From contig CAIVGN010000006.1 of the NCBI GenBank assembly GCA_903905455.1, positions 1-64,000 on the forward strand: a DNA stretch of 64,000 nucleotides, written 5' to 3'. Source of the DNA: an uncultured Archangium sp. (GTDB lineage: Bacteria; Myxococcota; Myxococcia; Myxococcales; Myxococcaceae). Position numbers and translations under genes: made by a program. Positions 14,466-20,674 of the stretch are shown in pieces; the stretch's first letter is position 1; every line of letters begins with the position of its first letter. The notes beneath the pieces are model-generated. The model did not search any database, was not told where the DNA came from, and worked only from the letters and a program-made list of their open reading frames with translations.

Positions 14466-15146
14466 GTGGCGACCAGCAAGAAGACGACGCGCGGCAAGGC
14501 CCAACCGGCGACGAAGGCGAAGAAGCCCAGGAAGGTCGCGACGCGCGCAGCGCCAGTCGACGAGTTCTCGGCCGCCGGCGGCATGCCCACCGTGCCCGCC
14601 GGTCTCCCGGCCAGCGACTTCAGCCGCGAACACCACGACGCGATGCGGGAGCTGACCTGGGGCGAGTTCGATCGCCACCTGCAGACACTGGCGCGTGACG
14701 TGGCGCGCACCTTTCGCCCCGACGCGGTGGTGGGCCTGGTGCACGGCGGCGTGTTCGTCGGCGGGGCGCTGGCCAGCGCGCTCAAGGCCGAGTTCTACCC
14801 GGTGCGCATCACCAGCCGCAGCCGCAGCCGCGAGCAGGGCCGCGCGCTCGAGTTCAGCGAAGATCTCCCCGGCGAGCTCAAGGGCAAGCGCCTGTTGGTC
14901 GTCGACGACGTCGCCAGCTCCGGCGACAGCATCGAGTTCGCCACCCGCCTCGCCCGCGCCCAGGGCGTCAAGGCCATCAAGAGCGCCGCGCTCATCGCCC
15001 GGCCGGGGCGCTTCGAGCCCGACTTCGTGGCCCTCACCTCGAACGAGTTCTTCGTCTTCCCCTGGGACTACCAGGACGTGGTCGACGACCGGCGCTTCGA
15101 GACCGGTGACGCGCCCGCCCCCAAGAAGCGCAGCCGCAAGACATGA
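14466..15146 (+). CDS. Phosphoribosyltransferase-fold protein
   Basis: 226 residues from a GTG start. The N-terminal 35 residues are Lys/Ala-rich and low-complexity, but their codons show the same strong G/C third-position bias as the rest, which supports this start despite no clear ribosome site. The type I phosphoribosyltransferase domain (about residues 55-215) contains the PRPP-binding motif LLVVDDVASSGDS (144-156) and the VVGLVHGGVFVGGALA strand. It resembles hypoxanthine/xanthine-type enzymes, but the purine-specificity hood cannot be read by eye. Its stop overlaps the selB start by 4 bp (ATGA), so the two are co-translated. Confidence 0.78.
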   Translation: MATSKKTTRGKAQPATKAKKPRKVATRAAPVDEFSAAGGMPTVPAGLPASDFSREHHDAMRELTWGEFDRHLQTLARDVARTFRPDAVVGLVHGGVFVGGALASALKAEFYPVRITSRSRSREQGRALEFSEDLPGELKGKRLLVVDDVASSGDSIEFATRLARAQGVKAIKSAALIARPGRFEPDFVALTSNEFFVFPWDYQDVVDDRRFETGDAPAPKKRSRKT

Positions 15147-17068
15147 TCGTCGGCACCGCAGGTCACGTCGACCACGGAAAGACCTCGCTGGTGAAGGCGT
15201 TGACCGGCGTCGACACCGACCGGCTGCCCGAAGAGAAGAAGCGCGGCATCACGCTGGAGCTGGGCTTCGCGCACCTCGCGTTGCCCGACGGGCGCGTGGT
15301 GGGCGTCATCGACGTGCCGGGCCACGAGCGCTTCGTCAAGGCCATGGCCGCGGGCGCCGGCGGGGTCGACGTCGCGCTGCTGGTGGTCGCCGCCGACGAA
15401 GGCGTGATGCCGCAGACCCGCGAGCACGTGGACATCTGCACGCTGCTCGGCGTGCGCCGCGGCGTGCTGGTGGTGACCAAGGCCGACCTGCTGCCGGGGC
15501 TGGGCGAGGGGTGGCTGGAGCTGCTCGAAGCCGACCTGCGCGCGCTCGTCGAGGGCACGCCCTTCGAGGGGGCCGCGCTGGTGCCGGTGAGCGCCCGGAC
15601 CGGGGAAGGGCTGCCCGCGCTCCAGGCGGAGATCGCCCGCCTGGTGTCCTCCCTCGAGGCCGAGCCCGACACCGCCCGCGGGCCCGACGCCCCGCTGTTC
15701 CTGCCGCTGGATCGCGCCTTCAGCTCGAAGGGCTTCGGCCTGGTGGTGACCGGCACCCTGTGGTCGGGCCGGCTGACGCCCGACGCCCAGGTGAGCCTGC
15801 TGCCCGATCTCCCCGGCCCCTTTCGCGTGCGCGGGCTCCAGGTGCACGGCGCGCCGGTGACCTCGGTGCTGGCCGGCACGCGCGTGGCGGTGAACCTCCC
15901 CGAGCTCTCGGTGGATCAGGTGCGCCGGGGCCTCGCGCTGACCCGCGAAGGCGAGGTGCCTGCCGCCCGGGTCCTCGACGTCGAGCTCACCCTGCTGCCG
16001 TCGGTGGAGACGCCGCTGGGTCGCCGCACGCGGCAGCTGGTGACCCTGGGCACGGCGCAGGTCGAAGCCGTGGTGCGGTTGGTCGACGTCGAGTCGCTGC
16101 GCCCGGGCGAGACCTGCTTCGCCCAGCTGCGCTTCGCCGCGCCGCTCGCCGCGCTGCCGGGCCAGCGCTTCATCCTGCGCGGCTCGCGGGTGGTGGAAGG
16201 GCGGGGCGCCACGGTGGCCGGCGGGCGCGTGCTGCTGGTCAACGCCCCGCGGAGGCGCGCGGGCGCGGCCGAGCGGCTGCAGCGCTTCTCCGAGGCGCCG
16301 CTCGACGAGCGCCTGGGCCTGCTGTTGACCGAGGCGGGCTATGCGGGCCTCGACGAAGCGGGGCTCTTCGCGCGCGCGCAGGCGTCCCACAAGGAAGTGG
16401 CCCGGGCGCTGGAGCGGGCCTCGGCCCGGGGCACGGTGGTGCTGGTCGACCGCGAGGCGCGCCGCTTCGTGTCCGGCGAGGTGCTCAAGGCCCTCGAGGC
16501 CCGGGCGCTGGCCCGGCTCGACGCGTTCCACGCGGCCCAGCACGAGCGCGCCGGCATGCCCCGCGAGGAGCTGCGCCAGCGGCTGGGCGAGCCCCCGGAG
16601 CGGGTGTTCGCCCGGGTGCTGTCCGGGGTGCTCGAGGCGAAGAAGGTGGAGCTCGTCGACGAGCTGCTGCGCCTGCCGGGCCGGGGCCGTGCCTTCACCG
16701 AGGCCGCGGCGGCGCACAAGGCCCAGCTCCTGGCGTTGCTCGAAGGCCGGGGCCTGTCTCCGCCGACGCTGCTCGAGCTGACCTCGGTGCTGCGGCTGCC
16801 CGAGGCCCGGGTGACGGCGCTGGCCCAGGCGCTGGTCTCGGAGGGCCTGGCGGTGCGGGCTGGCGAGCTCTTCTTCTCGAAGCAGGCCATCGAGGAGGTG
16901 CTGCAGAAGCTGCTCGGGCACTTCGCCGCCCACGAGCGGCTCAGCACCCAGGCTTTCAAGGAGCTGACCGGCCTGAGCCGCAAGTTCCTCATTCCCCTCG
17001 CGGAATACTTCGACCGCGAGAAGGTCACCCTGCGGGTGGGTGACGAGCGCGTGTTGCGAAGGCGGTGA
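15143..17068 (+). CDS. selB: Selenocysteine-specific elongation factor SelB
   Basis: The 641-residue GTPase delivers selenocysteyl-tRNA to UGA codons marked by a SECIS element. The G1 motif GHVDHGKT (7-14), [14 protein letters not shown] switch region, G3 DVPGHE (57-62) and a G4 TKAD are present. Elongation-factor barrels follow, then about 270 residues of C-terminal winged-helix repeats that bind the SECIS RNA (ending with [20 protein letters not shown], a typical SelB tail). The GITLELGFA string and winged-helix tail separate SelB from EF-Tu. No selA, selC tRNA or obvious selenoprotein lies in the window. It overlaps the phosphoribosyltransferase gene by 4 bp. Confidence 0.93.
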
Positions 17069-17116: not shown

Positions 17117-18535
<1,419 letters not shown>

Positions 18536-18538
18536 GGA

Positions 18539-18576
18539 TTTCAGATCTGAAAGGACATTTCCTTTCAGAGTTGAAA
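18539..18576. promoter_or_regulatory. Two TTTCA-N4-TGAAA sites upstream of RNA copy 1
   Basis: TTTCAGATCTGAAA (18539-18552, a perfect palindrome) and TTTCAGAGTTGAAA (18563-18576) lie 24 bp apart centre to centre, about 55-90 bp upstream of the -24 GG of the first sigma-54 promoter. Position and dyad symmetry fit enhancer sites for an NtrC-family dimer. The adjacent activator gene is the natural candidate (inference). Confidence 0.65.
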
Positions 18577-18596
18577 TCGAACGGTGACTTCGCGAC

Positions 18597-18609
18597 TCAA
18601 GGGCCTTGA
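18597..18609. promoter_or_regulatory. Inverted repeat TCAAGG-G-CCTTGA, copy 1
   Basis: It lies exactly 32 bp upstream of the -24 GG. A related element (TCAACCCCTTGA, 18837-18848) lies at the identical distance before the second promoter, so it is a conserved part of the duplicated module, perhaps another protein site. Confidence 0.45.
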
Positions 18610-18627
18610 ATCATTCAAAGTCCAGTT

Positions 18628-18643
18628 TGGCACACCGTTCGCT
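18628..18643 (+). promoter_or_regulatory. Sigma-54 promoter of RNA copy 1
   Basis: TGGCACACCGTTCGCT has the invariant GG (18629-18630), ten bases, then GC (18641-18642), with a full TGGCAC -24 box. The start of transcription is expected about 12 bases beyond the -12 C, near 18654. Confidence 0.75.
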
Positions 18644-18653
18644 GAGAGGAACG

Positions 18654-18772
18654 CCGTCGGGTAGATGAAGGTTGAAGGCGGTTCCCCCCCACCACTTCAG
18701 CAGCCCTGCCTGGCTTTCAGTTCAAGAAGACCCGCGGCCCGATGCGAACCTGCATCGGGCCGCCTTCTTTTT
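18654..18772 (+). ncRNA. pxr: Pxr-like small RNA, copy 1
   Basis: This non-coding transcript of about 119 nt is predicted from the sigma-54 promoter upstream and the intrinsic terminator at its end. A first stem pairs GUUGAAG (18671-18677) with CUUCAGC (18695-18701), leaving a 17-nt loop that contains a run of exactly seven C (18684-18690). The block 18681-18705 is identical in copy 2. I recognise the 7-C run followed by ACCACTTCAGCAGCC, located after a sigma-54 response regulator, as the Myxococcus Pxr RNA. That RNA blocks fruiting-body development while nutrients last, and a change in its C-run restored development in an evolved strain. Family recognition is from memory; the structure and promoter are read here. 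Confidence 0.8.
18734..18772 (+). terminator. Intrinsic terminator of RNA copy 1
   Basis: A perfect 12-bp stem GCGGCCCGATGC / GCATCGGGCCGC with a 6-base loop is followed by CTTCTTTTT. It forms the 3' hairpin of the RNA. Confidence 0.85.
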
Positions 18773-18787
18773 CGGACCTGAATCAGG

Positions 18788-18815
18788 TTTCAACTGTGAA
18801 ATTTCACGCTTGAAC
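18788..18815. promoter_or_regulatory. Two TTTCA-N4-TGAAA sites upstream of RNA copy 2
   Basis: TTTCAACTGTGAAA (18788-18801) and TTTCACGCTTGAAC (18802-18815, one mismatch) are directly adjacent, about 55-80 bp before the -24 GG of the second promoter. They match the two sites before copy 1, so each promoter has its own pair. Confidence 0.6.
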
Positions 18816-18836
18816 CCGAACCCTGATCCACCCGAC

Positions 18837-18848
18837 TCAACCCCTTGA
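18837..18848. promoter_or_regulatory. Inverted repeat TCAA-CCCC-TTGA, copy 2
   Basis: It is the counterpart of the element at 18597-18609, exactly 240 bp downstream and again 32 bp before the -24 GG. Confidence 0.4.
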
Positions 18849-18867
18849 AGTGACGCATTTGGGGCGG

Positions 18868-18883
18868 TGGCACGAGGCACGCA
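18868..18883 (+). promoter_or_regulatory. Sigma-54 promoter of RNA copy 2
   Basis: TGGCACGAGGCACGCA has GG (18869-18870), ten bases and GC (18881-18882), exactly 240 bp downstream of the first promoter. The expected transcription start is near 18894. Confidence 0.72.
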
Positions 18884-18893
18884 TGGCTGTCCT

Positions 18894-19016
18894 GCGACAT
18901 GGCAGTCGATGGTTGAAGAGGTTCCCCCCCACCACTTCAGCAGCCTCGCTGTGTTGGCAGTACCAGAAGACCCGCGGCCCGGTGTTCCCTCAGGGAGCAC
19001 CGGGTCGCCTTCTTTT
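18894..19016 (+). ncRNA. pxr: Pxr-like small RNA, copy 2
   Basis: A tandem paralogue of the first RNA. It has the same first stem (GUUGAAG 18912-18918 with CUUCAGC 18935-18941) and the same 7-C loop (18924-18930), and shares the 25-nt block 18921-18945 exactly. The middle (18946-18965) and the loop of the terminator hairpin have diverged, while AGAAGACCCGCGGCCCG is kept. Every element is offset by 240 bp from copy 1 up to the start of the terminator stem. Two copies with separate promoters could give dosage control or different targets; neither has been shown here. Confidence 0.78.
18974..19016 (+). terminator. Intrinsic terminator of RNA copy 2
   Basis: GCGGCCCGGTG (18974-18984) pairs with CACCGGGTCGC (18998-19008) with one G-U pair. 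An inner TCCC/GGGA extension follows, then CTTCTTTT. Confidence 0.8.
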
Positions 19017-19055
19017 GTGCGCCCTTCGCGTCGTTGAGCGACTCCTGCACCCATG

Positions 19056-19114: not shown

Positions 19115-20670
<1,556 letters not shown>

Positions 20671-20674
<4 letters not shown>

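Follow-up and report, generated by a model that had tools for sequence, protein, structure and literature searches.

Tandem pxr paralogs in an uncultured Archangium and evidence for a conserved leader helix in the Pxr small RNA

Small RNAs that govern the choice between growth and multicellular development are rare, and Pxr is one of them: as others have shown in Myxococcus xanthus, it holds back fruiting-body formation. Control of several sigma-54 small RNAs by one NtrC-type response regulator is familiar from Vibrio, where Qrr1-5 answer to LuxO, are encoded at dispersed loci and depend on Hfq. The tandem Pxr units described here share this arrangement of multiple sigma-54 small RNAs under one NtrC-type regulator, but are unrelated to the Qrr RNAs in sequence and bear no sign of common descent with them; the parallel between Qrr and pxr paralogy has been drawn before (PMC5568312). 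Pxr acts in M. xanthus as its shorter form, Pxr-S (PMC5568312, PMC10217877); synthesis of Pxr there depends on PxrR (PMC10217877), and its function on the SL1 loop (PMC5684412). The locus is ordered pxrR-pxr-nuoN, and three tandem pxr paralogs have been reported in Cystobacter minor and C. violaceus (PMC5568312). Here, we analyze the pxr locus in a stretch of 64,000 nucleotides (the window) from an uncultured Archangium species, whose source genome is an 8.6 Mb draft in 251 contigs and whose relatives are metagenome assemblies. While tandem copies are already known, three features are new: a pair of palindromes at pxr, the lack of pxrK and a pxrA-like gene at the locus in this genus, and a leader helix, P1.

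Two pxr homologues between pxrR and nuoN

The two units lie between pxrR and nuoN, which is the known pxr locus. The initial annotation pointed out that known Pxr lies behind a sigma-54 response regulator, and the same is true here: the adjoining gene is pxrR, ~71% identical to the pxr-adjacent regulators of two other genomes (G062 and G037).

15143..17068, + strand: selB (TIGR00475, 303.7 bits, over the cut-off)
17117..18535, + strand: pxrR (nla19) orthologue, an NtrC-type sigma-54 response regulator with Response_reg, Sigma54_activat and Fis-type HTH domains
18536-19020, + strand: both small-RNA units together
18654..18772, + strand: pxr1 small RNA, predicted start to terminator tail
18894..19017, + strand: pxr2 small RNA, predicted start to terminator tail
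19115..20674, - strand: nuoN (TIGR01770, 393 bits, over the cut-off), the conserved far-side flank

Like Pxr of M. xanthus and Stigmatella, the window RNAs follow pxrR and precede nuoN, are preceded by a sigma-54 promoter, carry a C7 loop on SL1 and end in a terminator, SL3, that starts with GAAGA-CCCGCGGCC; in contrast to the single copy of those species, there are two. The neighbourhood also differs from the M. xanthus/Stigmatella locus, as the window has neither pxrK beside pxrR nor a pxrA-like acetyltransferase gene beside pxr. The order selB-pxrK-pxrR is found in G062 and G037, as well as in those Archangium and g4/g6/g19 genomes that were checked. No pxrK kinase gene stands between selB and pxrR in the window or in two genomes of sister species (G010 and G011); here, the selB stop lies 49 bp ahead of pxrR, leaving no room for it. 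Elsewhere in the source genome, a PxrK-like kinase (L110) matches the PxrK gene best in G062 and G037, but the lead over other matches is slim and the similarity is confined to the kinase domain, leaving it a candidate orthologue. No pxrA-like gene was found between pxr2 and nuoN either, and the best match elsewhere in the source genome is only 32% identical. PxrA has been reported only from a few Myxococcus species (PMC11928866), but many genomes show a related acetyltransferase gene flanked by pxr and nuoN (L003-L032, L037, L038, L047, L073/L076), including those of A. violaceum and A. lansinium. Both genes belong to the Pxr pathway of M. xanthus, and their absence from the pxr locus in the window's genus is a new observation.

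The Pxr-like identity that the initial annotation had proposed holds. The Rfam model RF01812 matches pxr1 at 18664-18771 (58.5 bits, E 1.9e-9) and pxr2 at 18904-19016 (58.0 bits, E 2.5e-9), both over all 109 model positions and at the orthologous locus, and our family model R1 matches them at 18652-18731 (70.3 bits) and 18893-18971 (68.8 bits). The RF01812 scores of ~58 bits, compared with 120-135 for the best Pxr copies, fall under the gathering score of 80, so that a default Rfam scan returns neither unit. Such scores could be taken to mean that the elements are chance look-alikes, C-rich hairpins followed by terminators rather than Pxr. This reading is extremely improbable: it is refuted by two E-values of ~2e-9, the position at the pxr locus, the shared promoter and enhancer architecture, and the alignment with dozens of homologues. 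Both elements are pxr homologues, clearly so on sequence and structure despite their sub-threshold scores. More generally, 93 of the 96 family genomes searched contain pxr, and none of 14 control genomes does; because 32 of the 93 fall below the gathering score and 61 above it, the RF01812 threshold is one tuned to the Myxococcus side. With the leader built into a family model, the third of family genomes missed at this threshold would be recovered. Searches of the draft source genome (251 contigs) returned pxr1 and pxr2 as the only copies; a third family-model match (C130:14468, L095) was rejected as spurious (E 0.09, 26.7 bits, 61 nt, shorter than the model and apparently coding sequence).

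Both units are built alike: two enhancer palindromes and a sigma-54 promoter precede an SL1 hairpin carrying a C7 loop, and a strong intrinsic terminator follows. The promoter, C7-loop stem and terminator first noted for the two RNAs were thus all located in both, and the suggestion that the whole transcription unit was duplicated, promoter included, holds: enhancer sites, promoter, RNA and terminator are all present twice.

18539..18552, + strand: enhancer palindrome 1a, TTTCAGATCTGAAA
18563..18576, + strand: enhancer palindrome 1b, TTTCAGAGTTGAAA
18628..18643, + strand: sigma-54 -24/-12 promoter of pxr1, TGGCACACCGTTCGCT, with GG-N10-GC spacing
18788..18801, + strand: enhancer palindrome 2a, TTTCAACTGTGAAA
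18802..18815, + strand: enhancer palindrome 2b, TTTCACGCTTGAAC, matching at 9 of 10 positions
18868..18883, + strand: sigma-54 -24/-12 promoter of pxr2, TGGCACGAGGCACGCA, with GG-N10-GC spacing

Each promoter matches the sigma-54 consensus at 10 of 12 positions. The -12 boxes read TCGC and ACGC instead of TTGC, with pxr2 deviating more, and the start is predicted 12 bases past the GC of the box in both units. Nearly all other pxr copies in the family genomes also have a sigma-54 promoter element upstream. The initial description of an exact 240-bp tandem stands for the -24/-12 boxes (18628, 18868), the predicted starts (18654, 18894) and the C7 loops (18684-18690, 18924-18930), but not for the palindromes, which are offset by other distances, or for the RNA bodies, which measure 108 nt in pxr1 and 113 nt in pxr2. 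An ungapped comparison of the two units peaks at an offset of 240, with 113 of 245 bases matching (47-81 at other offsets from 230 to 250). When aligned, the transcripts are 77% and the whole units 62% identical, compared with 43% for shuffles (maximum 52%).

Origin of the tandem copies

The duplication is real, yet it adds one more case to a kind already published. The initial annotation took it to be unusual and to have happened here, and neither is supported by comparison: besides the published Cystobacter paralogs, Archangium and Cystobacter-like genomes contain 4-6 linked copies, and the window pair is common to two sister species. In G010 and G011, the two copies stand in the same order as in the window at spacings of 242 and 263 bp; together with a spacing of 235 bp in another relative, this makes 240 bp nothing special. 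Within the window's genus, G012 also has two copies and G009 one. In a tree of promoter plus RNA, pxr1 groups with the first copies of G010 and G011 (94/73) and pxr2 with their second copies (95/85), apart from the Archangium copies, although the deep forks are weak because the sequences are short. This copy-by-copy grouping indicates that the pair predates the split of these species and is separate from the Archangium arrays.

How does the pair relate to those larger arrays? The Cystobacter/Archangium arrays resemble the window in that the copies are tandem, on the same strand, at the pxr locus and each equipped with its own sigma-54 promoter. They differ in copy number, with three or 4-6 copies, and in unit length: in A. 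lansinium, A. violaceum and a neighbouring genus, up to six matches lie mostly in a single array with units of 290-328 bp, whereas the window's genus has two copies with units of 235-263 bp that group within their own genus. The tree shows no common descent with the arrays, and the window pair arose independently of them. Among relatives, pxr copy number ranges from one to six, and the data show at least two independent amplifications of the whole unit. Copy numbers from draft genomes are lower bounds, as the A. violaceum Cb vi76 draft is broken inside the pxr array (L073, L076).

Several arrays bear marks of their own history. Copies 2-3 of G006 recur as copies 4-5 (L040), and copies 2-5 of G033 are identical at a 325-bp spacing (L043), both of which suggest repeated amplification. 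Diverged extra copies are found on other contigs of G046, G051 and G080 (L052, L063, L048, L049), most with sigma-54 boxes and palindromes. The pxr units are inverted relative to pxrR and nuoN in G012 (two units) and G009 (one; L035, L036), and probably relative to pxrR in G088 (L061), where nuoN was not seen, so the units appear to be inverted as a block.

The leader helix P1

The most valuable result of this analysis concerns Pxr as a family: a covarying leader helix. The sigma-54 boxes predict a start 10-15 nt upstream of the annotated Pxr 5' end, and the leader in between is omitted from both the Rfam model and the published fold. When it is included in folding, it pairs with the region published as SL2, enclosing SL1, in nearly every copy. 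From their predicted +1, both window RNAs fold with this helix, P1, while retaining SL1, whose C-rich loop GGTTCCCCCCCACC is the same in both, and SL3; their folding energies are better than those of 200/200 shuffles (z -4.4 and -4.5).

18656..18664, + strand: P1 5' strand of pxr1, pairing with 18706-18714
18671..18701, + strand: SL1 of pxr1, with the C7 run 18684-18690 in its loop
18706..18714, + strand: P1 3' strand of pxr1, within the region published as SL2
18734..18763, + strand: SL3, the intrinsic terminator of pxr1
18895..18905, + strand: P1 5' strand of pxr2, pairing with 18945-18956
18912..18941, + strand: SL1 of pxr2, with the C7 run 18924-18930 in its loop
18945..18956, + strand: P1 3' strand of pxr2
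18974..19008, + strand: SL3, the intrinsic terminator of pxr2

The window RNAs hence depart from the published fold of three stem-loops (SL1, SL2 and SL3), and from M. xanthus/Stigmatella Pxr as annotated, in that P1 replaces SL2; the two helices use common bases and are mutually exclusive. In our reading, the missing SL2 points to an error in the published fold and does not place these RNAs outside the Pxr family. The first line of evidence is an alignment-free permutation test, in which leaders pair with their own partners at -14.5 kcal/mol and with permuted partners at -10.8 kcal/mol (z -8.2; 0 of 20,000). The 17 nt immediately upstream of the predicted +1 give no signal in the identical test (z +0.5), which supports the predicted start. 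Double-sided changes are seen at 9 of 10 P1 pairs in a plain sequence alignment, where 77% of cells are paired compared with 38-51% when the arms are slid. A model-based alignment of 66 distinct copies raises this to all 10 pairs and 87% of cells (34-45% slid), but weighs less than the permutation test because it is fitted to the structure. Across the same 66 copies, the pairing published for SL2 shows no gain over slid controls (62.9% paired versus 63.6% and 60.2%). RNAalifold on the plain MAFFT alignment recovered inner SL1 pairs only, since the leader arms are out of register there, which is why we relied on the permutation test and the model-based alignment.

Covariation of this kind is read from DNA sequences, and an activator-driven promoter lies upstream of both arms; the complementarity could accordingly belong to a DNA inverted repeat that serves as a protein-binding site close to the start. 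We consider this very unlikely, as G-U pairs are frequent at three P1 pairs (GU in 37/66 and 28/66, UG in 23/66 rows), which suits RNA, and the arms vary freely among lineages, unlike a protein site. That P1 is an RNA helix conserved across the Pxr family is a conclusion we draw with very high confidence, and the published fold probably misses this helix at its 5' end. What P1 does is more speculative. Pxr may be a two-state RNA, in which removal of the leader, possibly the conversion of Pxr-L to Pxr-S, would free the 'SL2' region, allowing SL2 to form on the Myxococcus side and yielding the active gatekeeper; we put this forward tentatively and rate it as rather unlikely as it stands. Either way, covarying P1 pairs provide a precise and cheap mutational handle on Pxr processing.

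Control and function of the two copies

Single TTTCA-N4-TGAAA sites occur six times in the 8.6 Mb source genome, three of them at pxr, and the reversed pattern is absent. Paired sites (TTTCA-N4-TGMAA / TTKCA-N4-TGMAA) are found in 78 of 92 genomes with no hits for reversed-pattern controls, and nearly all sites listed sit directly upstream of a pxr copy. A search for the double palindrome at fixed spacing had no matches because the spacing varies. The TTKCA-N4-TGMAA pair is a new element that accompanies pxr copies and is almost confined to them. As PxrR is required for Pxr in M. xanthus, the simplest reading is that PxrR binds the pairs and that the duplicated units carried their enhancers along; binding by the adjacent PxrR is most likely. 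At L099 (G000:C29:103889), a cold-shock-protein-like gene is preceded by a similar pair, TTTCACTTCTGAAT ... TTTCAGAAATGAAA, which makes that gene a possible candidate for a second PxrR target.

We consider it very likely that the window holds tandem Pxr paralogs, each an autonomous unit, with the proposed P1 fold and a role in repression during growth. The sub-threshold Rfam scores, the deviating -12 boxes and the lack of pxrK and pxrA at the locus weigh against this. In this model, the adjacent PxrR, bound at the palindrome pairs, would drive the sigma-54 promoter of each unit during growth. Primary RNAs would start at the sigma-54 +1 (18654, 18894), end at their own intrinsic terminators and fold into two hairpins: a long one, with the leader and 'SL2' region forming P1 and SL1 presenting the C7 loop at its tip, followed by the terminator SL3. 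The SL1 loop would repress targets during growth, as in M. xanthus, and with two copies the block on starvation-induced development would either gain in dose or be shared between them. Both copies are presumably expressed and functional, and a gatekeeper role in this lineage is plausible. In the source genome, the exact complement of the loop, GGTGGGGGGGAA, is confined to the antisense strands of both pxr copies and to a kinase gene, where it sits on the non-coding strand; this exact-complement search thus yielded no target.

But do two copies mean two working gatekeepers? Two of three Cystobacter paralogs failed to block development in M. xanthus and accumulated poorly (PMC5568312), so they need not. 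Here, too, a single copy could be the gatekeeper, with the other having lost its function or taken on a different one, like Cystobacter paralogs 1 and 3, and the two RNAs do differ at ~23% of aligned transcript positions. However, the SL1 loop, P1, terminator, promoter and enhancer pair are kept in both, and both copies have outlasted the split from G010 and G011. We give one working copy an appreciable but minority probability. P1 also offers a possible alternative reading of the Cystobacter failures: the foreign RNA bodies were fused to the M. xanthus upstream region (PMC5568312), and if this region stops just short of the annotated 5' end, it includes the M. xanthus leader, which may have left P1 mismatched on a foreign body. 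When we folded such chimeras using the M. xanthus leader and A. violaceum Cb vi76 bodies, copy 2 reached -27.9 kcal/mol and copies 1 and 3 -21.2 and -23.1 kcal/mol. The predicted ranking parallels the working and failing copies of the related strain, but with three proxies it is suggestive only and proves nothing.

Finally, pxr is also present in genomes of only 2.1-2.7 Mb: G084, G086 and G085, the last without an adjoining pxrR (L064). Organisms with such small genomes may not form fruiting bodies, which hints at another role for Pxr.
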